Shown here: one piece after another, positions 1 through 54,920 of the stretch
Layout of the letters: each line of letters starts with the position of its first letter
Numbering within the stretch: the first letter of the stretch is position 1
NCBI GenBank assembly: GCA_016869975.1
Contig: VGCZ01000001.1
Location: 1 to 64,000, forward strand
Direction: 5' to 3'
Origin: Alphaproteobacteria bacterium
GTDB taxonomy: Bacteria; Pseudomonadota; Alphaproteobacteria; Reyranellales; Reyranellaceae
Length of the DNA: 64,000 bases
Program-made: the position numbers and the translations under genes
The notes under the pieces: model-generated
Told to the model about the DNA's origin: nothing
The model's input: the letters and a program-made list of their open reading frames with translations, nothing else
Databases searched by the model: none

Positions 1-64
1 TCAAGACATCGGCTTGTCGGAGTCTCGAAACGATCTCTTCAGGCTTGTGCCTCTTCTTCGGCAT
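1..64 (-). CDS. IS3-family transposase OrfA, N-terminal fragment
   Basis: The first 21 codons of a transposase OrfA are visible; the gene runs off the left edge. The residues MPKKRHKPEEIVSRLRQADV match the N-terminus of OrfA proteins of IS3-family elements of the IS407 type, which carry the helix-turn-helix that binds the element ends. The start is well supported: an AAGGAGG ribosome-binding site lies just before the ATG. In this family OrfA is normally followed by a frameshift-fused OrfB with the DDE catalytic domain, which is not visible here. Confidence 0.8.
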   Translation of the reverse strand, partial: MPKKRHKPEEIVSRLRQADVL

Positions 65-127
65 TGCAGTCCTCCTTCTTGTCAAAAGACATAGTTCAGG
101 GCGGACCACTTTTCAGGGGGAGGACCA
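1..127 (-). mobile_element. IS3-family insertion sequence, terminal fragment
   Basis: This is the left end of an IS3-family element, read on the minus strand. It holds the start of an OrfA reading frame and about 60 bases of leader. The outer edge is inferred at base 127. There the minus strand begins TGGTCCTCCCCCTGAAAAGT, with the 5'-TG typical of IS3 ends. From base 128 onward the plus strand reads without a stop as a histidine kinase. The other end, and so any target-site duplication, lies outside the window. Confidence 0.75.
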
Positions 128-553
128 CGCGCCCGGGAGAGCAACATCAACGTGGCGTTCCGCATCGATCCCGGCGTCGACTTTGTCCTCGCCGACCGCA
201 TCCAGATCCAGCAGGTGTTGGTCAATCTGATCCGCAACGCGGTCGATGTACTGGCCGGGTTCGACGGCTCCCGCGCGATCGATGTCGAAACCCGCGCCGG
301 CGCCAATGGCATGGTCCAGATCAGCGTCGCCGACACGGGCAGCGGGCTGGCGCCCGAGGTCGCGCGCCAGCTCTTCCAGCCCTTCGTGACCACGAAGCAG
401 AAGGGCATGGGGCTGGGCCTGTCGATCTGCCGCACCATCATCGAGGCGCATGGCGGCAGGATCTGGGTCGAGGCGCGGCCGGCCGGCGGGACCATCTTTC
501 ACTTCACCCTACGCGCCGCCAGTGGCCACGGGGAGGACGCGCGTGACGAGTAG
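128..553 (+). pseudogene. FixL-like sensor histidine kinase, C-terminal ATPase part, cut by IS insertion
   Basis: Only the ATP-binding part of a histidine kinase remains. An N-box (NLIRNAVD), a G1 box (VADTGSGLAPEV) and a G2 box (GMGLGLSICRTIIEAHGG) are present. The sensor region and the phosphoacceptor histidine are missing. The frame is open right up to the IS boundary, so the insertion explains the truncation. The stop overlaps the start of the downstream FixJ-like regulator by 11 bases, as expected for a fixLJ operon. A GTG at 152 could start a short fragment, but without the histidine domain it could not autophosphorylate. The missing half may lie on the far side of the element. Confidence 0.75.
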
Positions 554-1157
554 CCCGGTCGTCCACGTCGTCGACGACGATGCCGACGTGCGCGATTCGC
601 TCACTTTCCTGCTGGGTGCGACCGGGCTCGCGGTGCGCGTCCACGAATCGGCGGTCGCCTTTCTCAAGGTGCTGCCCGAGATCGAGGACGGCTGCGTCGT
701 CACCGATGTGCGCATGCCCGAGATCGACGGCATCGAGCTGCAGCGCCGGCTTCGCGCCCAGGGCTGCCTCCTGCCCGTCGTGGTGATGACCGGCCACGGC
801 GACATCGCGCTGGCGGTCGAGGCGATGAAGGCTGGCGCTGTGGATTTCATCGAGAAGCCGTTCGACGACGACGTGCTGCTGGCCGCCATCCGCGCCGCCC
901 TGGCGCAGCGCGGCAGCGAGCGCGAGCGCGCGGCGCGGGTCGCCGAGGTGCGCGCCCGGCTGCGATCGCTGTCGGAACGCGAGCGCCAGGTTCTCGATGG
1001 TCTGGTGGCCGGCAAGCCCAACAAGATTATCGCCTACGATCTGGGCATCAGCCCGCGTACCGTGGAAATCTACCGCGCCAACGTCATGACCAAGATGGAT
1101 GCCGACAGCCTGTCGGCCCTGGTGCGCATGGCGATGCTCGACGCCGCCGCGACGTGA
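543..1157 (+). CDS. fixJ: FixJ-family two-component response regulator
   Basis: A 204-residue regulator with an N-terminal receiver domain and a C-terminal LuxR-type helix-turn-helix. The receiver shows the acidic cluster VVDDDADVR, the phosphoacceptor Asp in VVTDVRMPE, the TGHGD switch motif and the EKPF lysine motif. The DNA-binding half contains LSERERQVLDGLVAGKPNK followed by SPRTVEIYRANVM, a FixJ/NarL signature. The GTG at 543 is chosen because it overlaps the kinase end by 11 bases and gives the usual family length. In rhizobia FixJ is phosphorylated by the oxygen sensor FixL and activates fixK. Here its kinase is broken, so its activation state is uncertain. Confidence 0.88.
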   Translation: MTSSPVVHVVDDDADVRDSLTFLLGATGLAVRVHESAVAFLKVLPEIEDGCVVTDVRMPEIDGIELQRRLRAQGCLLPVVVMTGHGDIALAVEAMKAGAVDFIEKPFDDDVLLAAIRAALAQRGSERERAARVAEVRARLRSLSERERQVLDGLVAGKPNKIIAYDLGISPRTVEIYRANVMTKMDADSLSALVRMAMLDAAAT

Positions 1158-1241: not shown

Positions 1242-1616
1242 ATGGCCCAGTCGGCGCGGAGCATAGCCGTCGTCGACGACGACGCGGCGGTTCGCGACGC
1301 CCTGAAGTTCGCGCTGGAGTTCGAGGGCCTGTTGGTATGCCTCTATGACGGCGCGCAGGCGCTGCTTGCCGATCCTGAGCTGGCCCATCACGGCTGCCTG
1401 GTGATCGACTACCGCATGCCCGAGATCGACGGCCTGGAGCTGGTCGAGGTCCTGCATGCGCGCGGCCTGGCCATACCGGTCATCATGATCACCGGCCGCG
1501 CCAACAACGGCATGCGGGCACGGGCCAGCCGGGCCGGCATCCTGGCGGTGCTCGAGAAGCCCCTGTCGAGCAACGCGCTCGCCGACGCCATCCGCTCCGC
1601 CCTCGCCGGCCGCTAG
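1242..1616 (+). CDS. Single-domain response regulator (receiver only)
   Basis: A 124-residue stand-alone receiver. It has the acidic pair in AVVDDDAAVRD, the phosphoacceptor Asp in LVIDYRMPEIDG, a TGRA segment in place of the usual switch motif, and the conserved lysine in LEKPLS near residue 108. It has no output domain, so it probably acts as a phosphate sink or docking protein for the FixLJ-type pair beside it. The SD-like sequence GGGGAGGAAGG lies upstream of the ATG. A candidate FixK box precedes it, suggesting induction by the downstream Crp/Fnr regulator. Similar lone receivers occur near fixLJ/fixK genes in several alphaproteobacteria. Confidence 0.85.
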   Translation: MAQSARSIAVVDDDAAVRDALKFALEFEGLLVCLYDGAQALLADPELAHHGCLVIDYRMPEIDGLELVEVLHARGLAIPVIMITGRANNGMRARASRAGILAVLEKPLSSNALADAIRSALAGR

Positions 1617-1623
1617 CGCGGAC

Positions 1624-1656
1624 CCTACGTAGTAACCCTTAGGTCGTTTCCCTGAA
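1624..1656 (+). promoter_or_regulatory. Candidate FixJ-binding region upstream of the fixK-like gene
   Basis: The core CCTACGTAGTAACCCT is one base away from the FixJ selection consensus GTAMGTAG and is followed by GTTTCCCTGAA, a run also seen in rhizobial fixK promoters. It sits 60 to 90 bases before the ATG at 1717, a suitable place for a FixJ-activated promoter. This would link the regulator at 543 to the gene at 1717. The match was made by eye. Confidence 0.45.
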
Positions 1657-1716: not shown

Positions 1717-2403
1717 ATGCAAGCCATCAGCCCCGCCGCCGCCCGCCACTTCCCGCCGGCCGCCCTCGCGATGCGCGGCCCGGCCGCGATACCACGCCGC
1801 CCGGCGGCTGAACCGGGCGTGCGCCTTCGTTTCGCCAAGGGCGAGGCGATCTACACCGAAGGCGACGAGGCGGAACGCTTCTACAGGATCGTGTCGGGCA
1901 CCGTGCGCATCTGCAAGATGCTGCACGACGGTCGCCGCCAGATCGAGGCGTTCCACTTCGCCCGCGACATCTTCGGCCTGGAACGCGGCGACGGGCATCG
2001 CTTCACGGCCGAGGCGGTCGACGACGTGGTGGTCCTGGCGTTCCGCGCCCGCGGCCTCGAGGATCTGATCCGCGACGATCCCGACCTCGGCGGCGAGCTC
2101 ATGACCTCGCTGCTCTCCAGCCTTGATCGCGCGCGCGACCACCTGGTGCTGCTGGGCCGCAAATCGGCGCGCGAGAAGATCGCCGCCTTCCTGCTGGACA
2201 TCGCCGAGCGGCTGTCGGGCGACGACCACTTCGAGTTGCCGATGCAGCGCGGCGACATCGCCGATCACCTCGGCCTGACCATCGAGACCGTGTCGCGCAC
2301 GCTCACCCGGATGGCGCGCGACGGCCTGATCGGCCTGCAGGCCTGCGGCCGCACGGTCGAGATCCTGAACCGCGACGGCCTCACGGCCGCCGACGCCGGC
2401 TAG
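1717..2403 (+). CDS. fixK: Crp/Fnr-family transcriptional regulator, FixK-like
   Basis: A 228-residue regulator with a cyclic-nucleotide-binding-type beta barrel (about residues 35-130), a dimerisation helix and a C-terminal helix-turn-helix, IADHLGLTIETVSRTLTRM. The recognition helix contains the E..SR pattern of FNR and FixK proteins, predicting a TTGA-type half site. The N-terminus lacks the FNR four-cysteine cluster, so it should not sense oxygen through an Fe-S centre; this is the FixK arrangement, in which oxygen is sensed by FixL. GGAG lies before the ATG. It converges on the epimerase gene with only 10 bases between stops. Confidence 0.85.
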   Translation: MQAISPAAARHFPPAALAMRGPAAIPRRPAAEPGVRLRFAKGEAIYTEGDEAERFYRIVSGTVRICKMLHDGRRQIEAFHFARDIFGLERGDGHRFTAEAVDDVVVLAFRARGLEDLIRDDPDLGGELMTSLLSSLDRARDHLVLLGRKSAREKIAAFLLDIAERLSGDDHFELPMQRGDIADHLGLTIETVSRTLTRMARDGLIGLQACGRTVEILNRDGLTAADAG

Positions 2404-4909: not shown

Positions 4910-7900
4910 TCAGCCGATGAATCCGTTCCCATTGAGGTCCTGATTAAGCAGCGTTTCCATTGCGAGCAACTCAGGGGCGCTGCCCGAGACGACACCGGTC
5001 AGTGAAGAGGCATAGTTGCCGGTGGCGTCGGTTTTCCAAACCGTGTACTGGTCGGCGGTGCCGAACTTGAGAGCCACGTTGTAGCCACCGCCCGCCGCAG
5101 CGTCGGCGCCGATCGGCGTCCAAGCCCCGAACTGACCCGCCACGACATCCGCCCCAGAGTACTTCAACGTCGCGTCGGGCGTGCCGCTGTTCAGCAGGAA
5201 GTACCGGCTCTCACCCGCGCTCAGGCCGGTCACACCGGCCGCCTCGATCACCGTCAAGGCGACGCCAACCGTCCCATCGCCGTTGAGGTCCTGATCGAAG
5301 AGCGTTTCCAGCACGCGCAGCTGCGTGGCGCTGCCCGAGACGATGCCGGTCGGTGAAGAGGCGTAGTTGCCGTTACCGTCGGTATGCCAGACGCTGTACT
5401 GGTCGGCGGTGCCGAACTTGAAGACCACGTTGTAGCCACCGCCCGCCGCGGCGTCGGCGCCGATCGGCGTCCAGGCCCCGAACTGGCCAACCACGACATC
5501 CGCACCGAGATACTTCAGCTTTGAATCGAGCCCCTCGGTGTCGAGGAAGTACCGGCTGGCAAACTTGTTCAGCCTTACCGCGCCATTCGCCTCGACGACA
5601 TCATCACCCGGCAGAGTCCCTTCGCCAACGTTGGTCACCCCGATGCTGTAGGTCTGCTGCGAGCTGTTGCCGCTGGCGTCGGTCGCTCGCACGGTTACGC
5701 TGTACACGTTGTTCTGGTCGCCGTCGCTCGGCAACTCGAAGTTCGGTGTCGAGCCGAAGCGCAGCACGCCGGTCGTCGCGTTGATCCGGAATCGCCCGCC
5801 GTCGAGGCCGGGCACGATCGAGTATGTCACGCCAGAGGTATCGCCACCGGCGGCGTCGACGTCGCCGACGACGACGGAGTTCTCCGTCACGGGCCCCATG
5901 GTCGTCCGCAGCGAGGGGTTCGTGTTGGTCACGGCGACCGAGACCGACTGGACGACGGAGCCGCCATTGGCGTCCGCGGCCCGTACCTGCACCTCGTAGA
6001 CGTTGTTGGCGTTGGCGTCCGTCGGGTTGTCGAAGTCACGGGCGCTGACGAAGCTGAGCGCGCCGGACGACGCGTCGATCGCGAACCGCGCCGCGTCCGC
6101 GCCGCCGCTGATCGAGTAGCTCAGGACGGCGCCGGCGTCGACGTCCGTCGCGACGACCGAGCCGATAGCGGTGAGATTCTCCGCCACCGAGAAGGCGTTG
6201 CCCGAGGTGATCACCGGCGCGTCGTTCACGCCCGTCACGGTGATCGACAGCGTCGCGGTGTCGAACCCGCCCAGGCCGTCACTCACCTGGTAGGTGAAGG
6301 CGTCGACGGCGCTCGCACCTACGGCCAGTGCGTCCGCCGCCGCCTGATCCGCGACATAAGTGTAGGAGCCGTTCGCGTTCAGCGTCAGCGTACCCAGCGT
6401 GCCCACGACCGCCGCGCCCACGTTGACGGCCGAGCCGTTCACCTGGCTCACGGTCTTGATTGGGAACGGATCCACATCCGTGTCGTTCGCCAGCACGCCG
6501 GTCGCCGCCGTGGCGCTCACCGTGCCGTCTTCCGCCACCGTGTTGTCGTCGTCCACCGCCACCGGGGGAGTGTTGAGGATCACCGCGACGGAGACGGTAA
6601 TCGCCGCGCTGGTCGCAGAGCCGTCGGAGACTGTGTAGGTGAAGCTCGCCGTGCCGAGGAAGTTGCTGGTAGGCGTGAAGACGACATCGCCGTTGCCGTT
6701 GAGCGCGACGGTACCGCCGGTGCCCGAGGTCACCGAGGCGATGCTGAGCGTCGCGCCGGTGTCGACATCGATATCGTTGCCGAGCAGCGCCGACGCCGCG
6801 TAGGTGGTGGTGGTGTTCAGCGCAGCGGACAACCCGTCGGCCACGGCCACTGGCGCGTCGTTGGCGCCGGTGATGGTGATGGTGAGCCGCGCGTTATCGG
6901 TCGCGCCGTGCACGTCGCTCAGCGTATAGGCGAACACATCCTGCGCCGTCGCGCCGGCGGCCAGCGCCTGGGTGTCGGCGTCGGCGTTGTCGAGCGTGTA
7001 GGTCCACGTACCATCGGCGTTAAGGGTCAGGCTGCCGTAGCGGCCGGCCCGCGCCATGCCGACAACGCCGGAGGAGCCGGTCGTCACGCTCGACACCGCC
7101 GTCACCGTCGTCGTATCGCCCAGCGCGGCATCGGCGTCGCTGTCGTTGAGGCGAACATTGCCCGACGCCGACGGATCGCCCGTCACGTCGCTGGCGCCGC
7201 CCTCGCGCACGGTGTCGGCGCCGTTGACGTCGTCGTTCGCCACCGGCGCGTCGTTGACGATGTCGCCGGCCGCGAAGGTGCCGTTGCTGAACTGGAACTG
7301 CTCGACATTGCTGACCCGGTCCGTGCCGTCGGGACCGACCAGGGTCAGGACGCCGCCGGCCTCGGTGATCGTGTAGGCGCTCCACGCGCCGGAGAAGATC
7401 GCCCAATCGGCCGCGCCCGATCCGCCGTCGAGGAAATCGTTGCCGGCGCCGCCGATCAGCCTGTCGTTGCCGTCGCCGCCGTATAGCGTCTCGGCGCCAC
7501 CGCCGCCGGTGAGCGTGTCGTCGAAGCTCGACCCGTAGGCGACCTCTATGCTCGAGAGCAGGTCGTTGCCATCGGCGCCGCTCGCCGTGCCGACGCCGAG
7601 GTCGACAACCACGGCGCCTGACGCGTTTTCATATATGGCGCCGTCGATGTCCTCGCCGCCATACAGCGCGTCGTTGCCCAGGCCGCCCTCGAGCAGATCG
7701 TCGCCGGGGCCGCCATAGAGCGTATCGTCGCCGGCGCCGCCCACGATCAGATCGTCGCCGTCCTCGCCGCTGAGCGTATCGTCGCCGTCACCGCCATAGA
7801 TCGAGTCGTGGCCGCTCTGGCCCGATAGCGTGTCGTTGCCGGGGGTACCCTCGATCGATTCGCCGGTGGTGAAGAAGGCGAAGCTCGAGGCCGTCAGTTG

Positions 7901-10792
7901 CGAAAGGCTAATGTCGAGGATACGGACCTGGTGGGGCTGGACGCCGGTCTGCAAGGTCAGCACGACATCGTTGCCATCCTGGACCAAGCCGCTGCCATCG
8001 CCCACGATTTCGGCGAGGTTCGCGTAACCGTAAGCCGACACATCGATGCGGTCGCCGGCCGCGAAATCGACGATGGTATCGCTGCCGCCGCCCGACGGCA
8101 GGAAGACGAAGCGATCGCCGCCGACGCCGCCGGTCATGCGATCGTTGCCGACGCCGCTGATCAACCTGTCGTTGAACGCCGAGCCGATTACCTCTTCGAT
8201 CGAGTGGAATCGGTCGGTGTCGCCGCCGCTCGACGCCGTGCCGGCACCGAAGTCGAAGACCACGGCCGCGCCCGTAGCCGCGTAGGACGCCGTGTCGAGG
8301 CCCGCGCCGCCATAGAGCGTGTCGCTGCCGACGCCGCCGATCAGCGTGTCGGCGCCGAGGCCGCCATACAGGACGTTGACGCCGCCACCGCCGATCAGCG
8401 TGTCGGCCTGCGCCGTGCCGACGGCGTTCTCGATGCCGCTCAGCGTGTCGGACCCACCCGTCGCGGTGGCGGTGCCGGCGCCCAGGTCGAGCGTCACCCC
8501 GACGCCAAGTCCGTCGTAGCTCGCGGTGTCGTTGCCGACCCCGCCGAACAGATGATTGTCGCCCGGCCCGCCGGCGAGGGTGTCATCGCCATCCCCACCG
8601 CCCAGCGTGTCGTTGCCGCCATTGCCGGTCAGCAGATTGTCGGAGTCGTCGCCCGTCAGCGTGTCGCCGGCCGAGCCGCCGGCGAGGCCCTCGATGTTGA
8701 GCAGCGTGTCGACGCCGTTGCCGACGATGGTGCCGCCGCCGCCGACCAGGGTGGCGATGATGGCGGTGGTGGCGTCGCTGTAGTCGGCGACGTCCCTGCC
8801 CGCGCCGCCATCAAGCGTGTCGTCGCCGGCGCCGCCCTGCAGCGTGTCGTCGCCGCCCTTGCCGCTGAGCACGTCGTTGTCGGCTCCGCCGTAGAGCGTG
8901 TCGCCGGCGTTGAAGCCGTCGATGGTGTCGTTGCCGGCTTGGCCCTGGACGATCAGCGGCGTGCCATCGGCGCCCTGGCCGATCTGACGGCTGCCGTAAA
9001 CGAGATAGGTGACGCCGGCGTTACTGTTGGCGTCGACGCCGCTGATCAGGATGTCGGCCAAGCCGTCGGCGTTGACGTCGCCGGCGCTGGTGGCGCGCAG
9101 GCCGACGCCGCTGCCCGCCGGCGCCTCGATGCGGAAGCTGTCGCGGCCGTCGACGAGGCCGGCGTCGATGCTGGCATCCCAGTCACCGGCGCGGCCGAAC
9201 AGGATGTAACCGATGCCGGCGTCGGTGCCGCTGGCGCCTACGCCCGGCGCGCCGACGATCAGGTCGCCGAAGCCGTCGCCGTTGATGTCGCCCGCCGACG
9301 ACACCGAGCTGCCGAAGCCGTCGCCGGAGGTCACGCCGGTGATGACGAAGCCGTTGACGCCGTTGAGCGCCGACAGATCGACGCGCCAGGCGCCCGAGCC
9401 GTCGTCCCAGTCGCCGAGTTTGCCGAAGATCACATAGGCCGCGCCGGCGCCGCCGGCGTTGCGCGCACCCAGCATCAGGTCGTCGAGGCCGTCGCCGTTG
9501 AAGTCGCCGGCGCTCGACACCGAGAAGCCGAGATTGTCGCCGAATGCCAGGCCCTGGAACTCGATACCGATTTGGTCGGCGGCGACCTGCTGGAGGTTGA
9601 TGTTGGCGCTGAGCGAGGCGGCGCCGAACAGCAGATAGGCCACGCCGCCGCCGTTGGCGCCGTTGACCCGGGCGCCGATCAGCATGTCGCCGAAGCCATC
9701 GTTGTTGATGTCGCCGGCCGCGGCCACCGCGCCGACATTGGCGCCGGTGAGCGTCAGATGCGGCACCGCGCCAAGGCCTTCGACCGGGTTCGCCGCCTGC
9801 CATGAACCGGCCTGGCCGAACACGACATAGGTGCGGCCGTCGAAGCCGGCGGCGTCGGGCGCCGAGATCACCAGCTCGGCGCGGCCGTCGTTGTTGATGT
9901 CGCCGGCCGACGACACGGCGAAGCCGAACTGATCGGCCGTGCTCGAGGCGTTGTGCAGCATGAAGCCGTTGGCGCCGTTGAGCGTCGTCAGGTCGATCGG
10001 GATGGTCGCGCCGCCGGTGTCGGTCCAGCCGCTCGCCTTGCCGAACAGGACATAGGCCTGGCCGGGCGGGGTGCTGCCGGAGCCGGCGGTATTGGCGGCC
10101 ACGAGCACGTCGCCGAAGCCGTCGCCGTTGACGTCGCCGGCGCCCGAGAGGGCGAAGCCGGTCTGGCCGGTGCCGGTGAGGACCACGACATTGGGATCGG
10201 CGACGCCCAGGTTCACCGAGTCGGGCAAGCCATCGGCGCTACCGAACACGAGATAGGCACGGCCGCTGTCGTTGCCGAACTTGGGCGCGCCGATGACGAA
10301 GTCGTCGAAGCCGTCGCCGTTGACGTCGCCGACACCCGAGATGGCGTAGCCGCTCTCGCTGGCCACGACGCCGTCGAAGCGGGTGCCGGCCGAGCTCTCG
10401 AGGTTGGCGAGGTCGAGGGTGGCGCCCACCGTGCCCTGCAGGGTGACGGCGAAACGATCGTCGCCGGCGCCGAGCTGGATAAGCGCACCATCGAGCCACA
10501 GGTCGCCGGTGATGATGTCGGCGCCGCCGTTGTAGAGGATGGTGTCGACGCCGGTGCCGCCCTTCAGCGTGCGGTCCTGGACATCGGCCAGCAGCGTGTC
10601 GTCGCCGGCGCCGCCGAAGAGCGCGTCGGCGCCCGAGCCGCCATCCACCGTGTCGTTGCCGGAACCGCCGAAGAGGAAGTCGACGCCGCCTAGGCCGGAA
10701 ATTGTATCGTCACCGCCGAGGCCTAGACCGATGTCATTGTCAGCGCCGCCCGAAAGACTCTCTCCGGCTGACGTCCCGGCAAAATATGCCAT
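4910..10792 (-). CDS. Giant RTX/FG-GAP/cadherin-like exported calcium-binding protein
   Basis: A 1960-residue repeat protein with no classical signal peptide. From the N-terminus it has a short block of RTX nonapeptides (GGxGxDxxx, about residues 14-90), then several FG-GAP repeats (DVNGDGFDDFVIGA type, about 150-600) likely forming an integrin-like beta propeller. Two larger RTX blocks follow (about 615-950 and 980-1175), then VCBS/cadherin-like domains (about 1180-1735) with NDAPV linkers. It ends in two tandem domains resembling the W_rich_C family (about 1735-1960). Such proteins leave by type I secretion and fold on external calcium. No ABC exporter, membrane-fusion or outer-membrane partner is in the window. 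Likely role: adhesion or surface layer. It lies beside sugar-nucleotide genes. Confidence 0.85.
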   Translation of the reverse strand: MAYFAGTSAGESLSGGADNDIGLGLGGDDTISGLGGVDFLFGGSGNDTVDGGSGADALFGGAGDDTLLADVQDRTLKGGTGVDTILYNGGADIITGDLWLDGALIQLGAGDDRFAVTLQGTVGATLDLANLESSAGTRFDGVVASESGYAISGVGDVNGDGFDDFVIGAPKFGNDSGRAYLVFGSADGLPDSVNLGVADPNVVVLTGTGQTGFALSGAGDVNGDGFGDVLVAANTAGSGSTPPGQAYVLFGKASGWTDTGGATIPIDLTTLNGANGFMLHNASSTADQFGFAVSSAGDINNDGRAELVISAPDAAGFDGRTYVVFGQAGSWQAANPVEGLGAVPHLTLTGANVGAVAAAGDINNDGFGDMLIGARVNGANGGGVAYLLFGAASLSANINLQQVAADQIGIEFQGLAFGDNLGFSVSSAGDFNGDGLDDLMLGARNAGGAGAAYVIFGKLGDWDDGSGAWRVDLSALNGVNGFVITGVTSGDGFGSSVSSAGDINGDGFGDLIVGAPGVGASGTDAGIGYILFGRAGDWDASIDAGLVDGRDSFRIEAPAGSGVGLRATSAGDVNADGLADILISGVDANSNAGVTYLVYGSRQIGQGADGTPLIVQGQAGNDTIDGFNAGDTLYGGADNDVLSGKGGDDTLQGGAGDDTLDGGAGRDVADYSDATTAIIATLVGGGGTIVGNGVDTLLNIEGLAGGSAGDTLTGDDSDNLLTGNGGNDTLGGGDGDDTLAGGPGDNHLFGGVGNDTASYDGLGVGVTLDLGAGTATATGGSDTLSGIENAVGTAQADTLIGGGGVNVLYGGLGADTLIGGVGSDTLYGGAGLDTASYAATGAAVVFDFGAGTASSGGDTDRFHSIEEVIGSAFNDRLISGVGNDRMTGGVGGDRFVFLPSGGGSDTIVDFAAGDRIDVSAYGYANLAEIVGDGSGLVQDGNDVVLTLQTGVQPHQVRILDISLSQLTASSFAFFTTGESIEGTPGNDTLSGQSGHDSIYGGDGDDTLSGEDGDDLIVGGAGDDTLYGGPGDDLLEGGLGNDALYGGEDIDGAIYENASGAVVVDLGVGTASGADGNDLLSSIEVAYGSSFDDTLTGGGGAETLYGGDGNDRLIGGAGNDFLDGGSGAADWAIFSGAWSAYTITEAGGVLTLVGPDGTDRVSNVEQFQFSNGTFAAGDIVNDAPVANDDVNGADTVREGGASDVTGDPSASGNVRLNDSDADAALGDTTTVTAVSSVTTGSSGVVGMARAGRYGSLTLNADGTWTYTLDNADADTQALAAGATAQDVFAYTLSDVHGATDNARLTITITGANDAPVAVADGLSAALNTTTTYAASALLGNDIDVDTGATLSIASVTSGTGGTVALNGNGDVVFTPTSNFLGTASFTYTVSDGSATSAAITVSVAVILNTPPVAVDDDNTVAEDGTVSATAATGVLANDTDVDPFPIKTVSQVNGSAVNVGAAVVGTLGTLTLNANGSYTYVADQAAADALAVGASAVDAFTYQVSDGLGGFDTATLSITVTGVNDAPVITSGNAFSVAENLTAIGSVVATDVDAGAVLSYSISGGADAARFAIDASSGALSFVSARDFDNPTDANANNVYEVQVRAADANGGSVVQSVSVAVTNTNPSLRTTMGPVTENSVVVGDVDAAGGDTSGVTYSIVPGLDGGRFRINATTGVLRFGSTPNFELPSDGDQNNVYSVTVRATDASGNSSQQTYSIGVTNVGEGTLPGDDVVEANGAVRLNKFASRYFLDTEGLDSKLKYLGADVVVGQFGAWTPIGADAAAGGGYNVVFKFGTADQYSVWHTDGNGNYASSPTGIVSGSATQLRVLETLFDQDLNGDGTVGVALTVIEAAGVTGLSAGESRYFLLNSGTPDATLKYSGADVVAGQFGAWTPIGADAAAGGGYNVALKFGTADQYTVWKTDATGNYASSLTGVVSGSAPELLAMETLLNQDLNGNGFIG
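4913..5580 (-). repeat. Tandem C-terminal W_rich_C-like coding repeat, two copies
   Basis: The last 220 or so codons of the giant protein are two copies of one module, offset by 351 bases (117 codons). Stretches around 5045-5135 and 5396-5486 are almost identical in DNA, including silent positions. Both copies contain GQFGAWTPIGADAAAGGGYN and end in QDLNG. The near identity suggests recent duplication or gene conversion. Edges approximate. Confidence 0.8.
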
Positions 10793-52735: not shown

Positions 52736-52799
52736 TATCATCCCGAGTGCAGCGAGGGATCCAGGCTATTCGAGATCGCTCGCTACGCTCGGGATGACA
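52736..52799. repeat. Palindromic repeat, family A, inverted pair
   Basis: TCATCCCGAGTGCAGCGAGG and the complement of CGCTACGCTCGGGATGA face each other across a short spacer. It matches the units at 12132 and 16206. Lying between two convergent genes, it is a likely bidirectional terminator or mRNA end. Confidence 0.8.
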
Positions 52800-52805
52800 G
52801 TCGGG

Positions 52806-54452: not shown

Positions 54453-54920
54453 CTACTTAACGCGCGTCCAGATCTGCGTCTTGCCGAGAATCGGCGCGCC
54501 GACATAGCCGCGCAGCCGCAACGTGCCGTCGGCCTGCAGCGACAGATTGGCCCTGTATATCTTGCCATCCTCGGCGCTGTAGATCGCACCCTCCTCGAAG
54601 CTGCCGGCCGTCGCGGTCGGCTTGAAGCCGTAGAGGAACACCATTTGCAACACCTTGCGGGTCCGCAGATTGGCATCAGGGTTGCGATGGTCGACCGCGT
54701 CCTCGGGCTTCACCGGCTTGCCGTCGGCGCCCTTGGGATCGAGCAGGCGCACGATGCGGCCGCAGACCGGCCCGTTCGTGGCGTCCGGGCACTTGTAGAT
54801 CTCGACATGCGCCGCCTTCGACTCGGTGAGCCATACGCCGTGGATATCGGCGGCGAACGCCGGCGAGGCCAGCAGCGCGCCGGCCAGAACGGCCGGCGCC
54901 AGGTACCGCACACCGCGCAT
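54453..54920 (-). CDS. DUF2147-domain secreted protein
   Basis: A 155-residue protein with signal MRGVRYLAPAVLAGALLASP ending near AFA (residue 23). The DUF2147 domain shows DIHGVWLTESKAAHVEIYKC, a second Cys in GPVCGRIV, and KIYRANLSL then GYVGAPILGKTQIWTRV. Family members are small periplasmic beta proteins of unknown role. The ATG overlaps the SDR stop by one base, so the pair is co-translated. Confidence 0.82.
   Translation of the reverse strand: MRGVRYLAPAVLAGALLASPAFAADIHGVWLTESKAAHVEIYKCPDATNGPVCGRIVRLLDPKGADGKPVKPEDAVDHRNPDANLRTRKVLQMVFLYGFKPTATAGSFEEGAIYSAEDGKIYRANLSLQADGTLRLRGYVGAPILGKTQIWTRVK

Follow-up and report, generated by a model that had tools for sequence, protein, structure and literature searches.

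Gene content at the left end of the contig

The window analysed, a 64-kb stretch of DNA, is the first part of a contig of 185,327 bases (C1) and starts at contig base 1. The genome from which it comes (G000) was assembled into 96 contigs, amounting to 4.84 Mb, with a listed completeness of 100, and is smaller than the same-genus genomes G001 and G003 (6.4 and 6.2 Mb); the same-genus genome G002 is 67% complete. From left to right, the window begins with the left end of an IS3-type element on the minus strand (positions 1..127), which is cut off by the contig start, followed on the plus strand by the 3′ remnant of a FixL-type sensor kinase gene (128..553), a fixJ-like response regulator gene (543..1157) that overlaps the fixL stop, a gene for a single-domain receiver (1242..1616), and a gene for a fixK-like CRP/FNR regulator (1717..2403).

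On the minus strand of bases 1-64, the first 21 codons of an OrfA-like frame were found at 64-1, encoding MPKKRHKPEEIVSRLRQADVL. The tip of the element is common to C1, C37 (bases 1-98), and C76 (bases 1-102) up to window base 127, and all three contigs diverge at 128; the C1 tip is identical to that of C37 at 96/98 bases and to that of C76 at 99/102, and the exact 12-mer TGGTCCTCCCCC was found in G000 only at these three left tips. The tips of C37 and C76 agree with each other at 98/98 bases, the C1 copy (window 26-127) differs from C76 at 3/102, and the C1 copy may be an older one. Elements of the IS3 family have TG...CA ends and an OrfA/OrfB transposase with a DDE (rve) domain. Both tips, the start of OrfA, and the end of OrfB were observed in G000, and relatives of the element on plasmids are annotated as IS3. 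A similar tip, at 60-90% identity, is present in 33 plasmid records, and among the matches listed an annotated IS3 family transposase lies under the match in 11 of 20 plasmid records, 19 of which we take to be from Alphaproteobacteria genera and one from Pseudomonas. The length of the element is 1.23-1.27 kb in six plasmid relatives. An rve search of the G000 assembly gave no match to the interior of the element, and therefore the assembly does lack repeat DNA.

The kinase remnant consists of the last 141 codons of the gene. Its product contains a HATPase_c domain (E 1e-27), in agreement with the initial annotation, which had read 128-553 as the ATPase half of a histidine kinase; the PAS and HisKA domains are missing. 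In G001, the corresponding kinase is 392 aa long, has PAS, HisKA, and HATPase domains, and shares 80% identity with the remnant product over its residues 253-392. DNA likeness to the same-genus kinases (85% for G001, 76% for G002 and G003) begins at base 129, and the shared IS tip ends at 127, which confirms that an IS3-type tip adjoins a fixL gene truncated at the element. The further statement that the kinase had been cut exactly at the frame was right about the IS end at 127 but overstated, as the frame is already open from base 95, following a TAG (92-94) within the IS tip, and its first ATG, GTG, or TTG is the GTG at 152.

The name FixL refers to the ancestral kinase and comes from the relatives only. 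The full-length G001 kinase and its PAS domain match FixL chains in the PDB (PAS against heme-PAS chains: E 1.3e-48 for 1dp6, with similar values for others), and the aligned heme-pocket segments read RHD and GIGR in G001 and QHD and GIGR in G003, in which the His and Arg are presumably the FixL heme-pocket residues. The window gene has HATPase-type domains only, not the PAS, HisKA, and HATPase domains of a FixL in one protein. A match to the kinase at E ≤ 1e-20 was obtained in 33/61 genomes searched (G000 included). The pN/pS ratio of the remnant was 0.44, 0.35, and 0.36 relative to G001, G003, and G002, near the values that intact genes give across these codons (0.48 for G001-G003 and 0.37 for G001-G002). 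Relaxed selection on the remnant was thus not seen, which leaves no basis for a date.

The frames of fixJ, the receiver gene, and fixK are all open in the window. The FixJ-like protein has Response_reg and GerE (LuxR-type HTH) domains, with FixJ 5xso as its best PDB match (E 1.7e-67 over 199 residues). The receiver (Response_reg, E 2.8e-21) is in the place of Bradyrhizobium bll2758, and a solo receiver is found at the same place in G001, G003, and G002. The FixK-like protein has cNMP_binding and HTH_Crp_2 domains, and the best of its 17 PDB matches was 4i2o (FixK2; E 1e-41). The order fixL, fixJ, receiver, fixK is intact in G001, in which about 1.5 kb separates the receiver gene from fixK, and in G003; G002 keeps the order as well, the examined stretch ending within fixK. 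Relative to G001, pN/pS was 0.30 for fixJ and 0.33 for fixK, with no clear relaxation.

Upstream of fixK, at 1625..1632, there is a putative FixJ box, CTACGTAG followed by CCCTTAGG, the assignment of which is our assumption. It is kept in the relatives: both parts are present before fixK in G003 and G002, and G001 has CTCCGTAG plus the CCCTTAGG part. A loose FixJ-box pattern had a second match in the window at 54453 (minus strand), and the available part of PMC4999443 yielded no FixJ motif. The FixK-like protein has a Q at the residue taken for Cys183 of FixK2, which is S in 4i2o (C183 and C183S of FixK2 are treated in the accessible portion of PMC9104804). Because Cys183 of FixK2 is redox-sensitive, oxidation control may differ in the window protein.

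Elsewhere in the window, the minus strand of 4910-10792 is a 1960-aa open frame with repeats that by eye resemble FG-GAP, cadherin-like, and RTX calcium-binding motifs, and a related region of G001 gave repeated matches. An interspersed palindromic repeat of ~70 bases with a strong hairpin is present at window 52738-52800, at C1:91052-91121 and 96586-96660, and on many other contigs, in about 30 places in G000 among the matches listed, as well as in G001.

The fixL sensor half and cbb3 oxidase genes in G000 and its relatives

When the 252 N-terminal residues of the G001 kinase were used to search the G000 assembly, only paralogues of 34-35% identity were found (17/17 candidates scored). The proposal that FixJ had lost its partner therefore holds for this assembly, in which no FixL was found. 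The FixO and FixN-like oxidase is the usual output of a Fix module. FixO had no match in G000; the single COX1-family match in G000 is on C23, and G001 FixN did not match that protein at E<1e-3. Thus, the initial view that the rest of the module was intact is correct for fixJ, the receiver, and fixK, but it does not extend to the oxidase.

FixO is present in 3/3 other same-genus genomes. Overall, a FixO match was obtained in 24/37 genomes searched (G000 among the 37), 22 of them over the cut-off, and in 2/14 control genomes (Caulobacter and Synechococcus). In 13/14 family genomes with a close fixL match, fixO and fixL share a contig and are 7.1-50.8 kb apart, the exception being G002, in which they are on two contigs. 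Among 22 other members of the family that were examined for both proteins, FixO was over the cut-off in each of the 14 whose kinase match reached E ≤ 1e-45, compared to 3/8 of the rest (Fisher p 0.002, for related genomes and an E cut-off chosen after seeing the data).

At the DNA level, the 12.3 kb before and into G001 fixL were compared with G000. Among the best 40 of 1134 candidates, nothing was longer than the matches to a Usp-like gene on C24, to a CRP/FNR gene that is the window's own fixK, and to short interspersed repeats; in a second search, with a 2.5-kb query, the best 40 of 464 candidates were scored. The Usp gene on C24 is 70% identical in DNA and 49% in protein to the one in this stretch and is presumably a paralogue. 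In G001, a gene for an AAA_33 protein with weak phosphotransferase- and zeta-like matches lies upstream of fixL, between the cbb3 genes and fixL (L040 5604-7187).

The opposite end of the element and a probable deletion

Because the window begins at contig base 1, the other side of the element was sought on other contigs. With a tolerant pattern of the right tip, 76 matches were obtained over both strands, and since a reversed-pattern control gave 57, nearly all of the 76 are ascribed to chance. One 24-mer was repeated at four sites, on C4, C34, C70, and C79, in each case less than 130 bases from the right contig end, and the sequence past it encodes the last part of an IS3-type transposase, without a mismatch in any overlap. 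The tip on C4 is the opposite end of the C1 element, in matching orientation.

The last ~18 kb of C4 are collinear with G003:C2 48345-71858 in the same orientation, with 82-93% identity per block, and two pieces similar to the C4 end are found elsewhere in G003, at 68% and 74%. Past the element, C1 parallels G003:C2 99618-101883; to the right of fixK, it matches G001:C15 rather than G003 over at least 12 kb, except for one 0.4-kb match elsewhere. Between the C4 and C1 points, G003 has 27,757 bases (27.8 kb) that hold FixG, FixP, FixO, FixN, a DsbD-like protein, Hsp20, an FtsH-like protease, a Usp protein, and the beginning of fixL. The last gene of C4 encodes a GMC-type oxidoreductase, and 230 bases separate its stop codon from the element. 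These 230 bases match neither G003:C2 71-100 kb nor G001:C15, and no counterpart of the GMC gene turned up in the examined stretches around the fix genes of seven other genomes.

In bases 1-200000 of G003:C2, nine FixK-type boxes (TTGA-N6-TCAA) were found, all within the stretch missing from G000, for which 0.10 boxes are expected from 30 simulated sequences. There were none in the 64-kb window (0.17 expected) or in a further 130 kb of G000. In 90.8 kb of G001, nine boxes were found, four in the fix stretch (our limits being 53083-71217) and five outside, one of which (52801) is identical in sequence to the first box of the G003 stretch. FNR-type proteins may use the same boxes as FixK, so their presence is no proof of a FixK regulon. 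A wider consensus for FixK2, TTG[AC]-N6-[TG]CAA, taken from the available portion of PMC9104804, is less clean: it gave 11 matches in the lost stretch of G003, 0 to the left, and 5 in 100 kb to the right, with 1 in the window.

The initial annotation had proposed a target duplication of 3-5 bases as a check. Flanks were compared by eye at 2 to 5 bases for the three left tips (C1, C37, and C76) and four right tips (C4, C34, C70, and C79) in G000, and none of the 12 pairings agreed at 3, 4, or 5 bases; this expectation was thus not supported for C1 or for the other tips. Only 2 bases agree between C76 and either C4 or C70, and the flanks of C4 and C1 at the element are CTGGG against CGCGC. Nine plasmid copies of such elements were delimited by script, and six with a right end scoring ≥21/24 were kept (three of them score 24 as references); L205, L206, and L209 were dropped (scores 12-16), and L139, a match without the terminal bases, was left out. 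One of these six well-delimited copies had a duplication, of 4 bases. The other copies of the element in G000 may also mark deletions.

The opposite, matching tips on C4 and C1, the collinearity with G003, and the missing fixL N-terminal half and FixO together make a deletion at C4, the element, and C1 the most likely reading. The IS3-type element probably marks the junction left by a deletion that, as measured in G003, covered about 28 kb and removed the sensor half of fixL and the cbb3 genes. The left breakpoint would be 230 bases past the GMC-type oxidoreductase gene at the right end of C4, and the right breakpoint inside fixL, at window base 127/128. Such a deletion would have taken the heme-PAS and phosphoacceptor half of fixL, the fixLJ promoter region, and the neighbouring cbb3 oxidase genes, along with all nine TTGA-N6-TCAA boxes found in the 200 kb of G003, and would have left fixJ, the receiver gene, and fixK without a kinase and without their main nearby targets. 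With the fixLJ promoter gone and FixJ not phosphorylated by FixL, the circuit would most likely be off unless another kinase feeds it. The element could have inserted at one breakpoint and then given rise to an adjacent deletion, or two direct copies could have recombined; the two routes give the same end state and are not told apart. In three LTEE populations, 14/83 IS events were accompanied by deletions, of 14 to 48,894 bp, and all 14 involved IS150, of the IS3 family, without target duplications (PMC11708052, in the part available). The event proposed here is therefore ordinary in kind and of a well-known type, albeit a tidy instance.

We infer the physical joining of C4 and C1, as well as the mechanism, and we regard the deletion as probable and not more, because the joint is unassembled and a contig lying between two copies of the element may be missing. 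The synteny, moreover, is with one genome only (G003), and the GMC gene was not seen in the stretches examined around the fix genes of the seven other genomes. Identity to G003 is higher for C4 (82-93%) than for the fix side (76%), and so the two flanks may have different histories. Since four right tips and three left tips were found, at least one IS-flanked edge is unaccounted for, and the fact that C4 and C1 share no duplication is weak evidence, as only one of six plasmid copies has a duplication.

If two copies of the element flank a fix segment that is still in the cell, a contig of ~28 kb between them would be absent from the assembly or the bin. The missing interior of the element, which means that repeats broke the assembly here, and the unequal counts of left and right tips favour this reading, and the C4-C1 pair without a duplication fits it equally well. 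However, IS-edged contigs as short as those of C79, C76, and C70 (8.1, 9.5, and 12.8 kb) were retained, as were contigs down to 1599 bases, and with a listed completeness of 100, the one contig lost would be 28 kb of host-like DNA; we consider this unlikely. Much less probable is a simple insertion into fixL, as the initial annotation proposed, with the N-terminal half across the element on an absent contig and the synteny of C4 a coincidence. The remnant is open and conserved, as it would be after a recent insertion, but the N-terminal half was not found, and the probable neighbour C4 corresponds to a point 27.8 kb before the remnant in G003. For the right tip of C4 to be on the correct side, in the correct orientation, and no more than 28 kb from the fixL remnant in G003 has a chance of about 1% for four right tips in 4.84 Mb, by plain arithmetic, and a simple insertion also requires the loss of a contig with the fixL N-terminal half and fixO.

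A question of function, compatible with any of these structural readings, is whether FixJ and FixK are still active through another kinase or an outward promoter of the IS. This is doubtful, although the open frames of fixJ and fixK with the pN/pS values given above, the putative FixJ box retained before fixK, and a kinase on C47 (39% identical over 236 residues, PAS-like by eye) agree with it. A recent deletion accounts for the open frames equally well, and no link was found between the C47 kinase and FixJ. An outward IS promoter, suggested initially, received no support: in 1-2500, 0 sigma-70-like sites were found, with 0.1 expected in shuffled sequences, in a weak test that covers the sigma-70 type only (an equally weak test for terminator-like sites also gave 0, with 0.7 expected). 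It is a very improbable extension of the deletion that one IS event removed the sensor, all local FixK-type boxes, and the cbb3 oxidase while FixJ, the receiver, and FixK were kept by selection and rewired to another kinase and other targets, as a step in an IS-driven loss of microaerobic respiration in the lineage of G000.

If the probable deletion is correct, it illustrates how a single insertion element could remove an environmental switch along with its output and leave an orphan regulator pair. For annotators, a match to FixJ or FixK need not imply FixL or a cbb3 oxidase in the same genome. Should reads confirm the deletion, G000 would be a natural example without fixL and cbb3 in a family where the two occur together. 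A literature search by titles and the starts of abstracts gave nothing on this locus for an IS-made loss of fixL or cbb3, or for Reyranella with cbb3.

Comparison with known systems

The order fixL, fixJ, single receiver, fixK is like that of fixLJ-bll2758-fixK2 in Bradyrhizobium diazoefficiens, an order that we assume for the part beyond the fragment holding the last three genes. The presence of fixJ, bll2758, and fixK2 on one Bradyrhizobium fragment is given in the accessible part of PMC9104804. The likeness to the B. diazoefficiens cascade extends to FixJ and FixK2 as the best PDB matches and to the cbb3 genes and FixK-type boxes nearby in the relatives; in contrast, in the window fixL is the ATPase part only, the cbb3 genes were not found in G000, and the FixK-like protein has Q at the presumed Cys183.

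The receiver at 1242-1616 is similar to FixT of Caulobacter in being a solo receiver beside a FixLJ system. According to the available portion of PMC7078487, FixT is a feedback inhibitor with a 4-Cys motif that binds an Fe-S cluster, whereas the window receiver has 2 cysteines and is not assigned to FixT. As for the element, the IS150 adjacent deletions of the Lenski experiment (PMC11708052, in the part available) were seen in a time series, whereas the deletion proposed here is inferred from synteny between contigs; an IS3-family element stood at the edge of those deletions, as the IS3-type element would here, in neither case with a target duplication.
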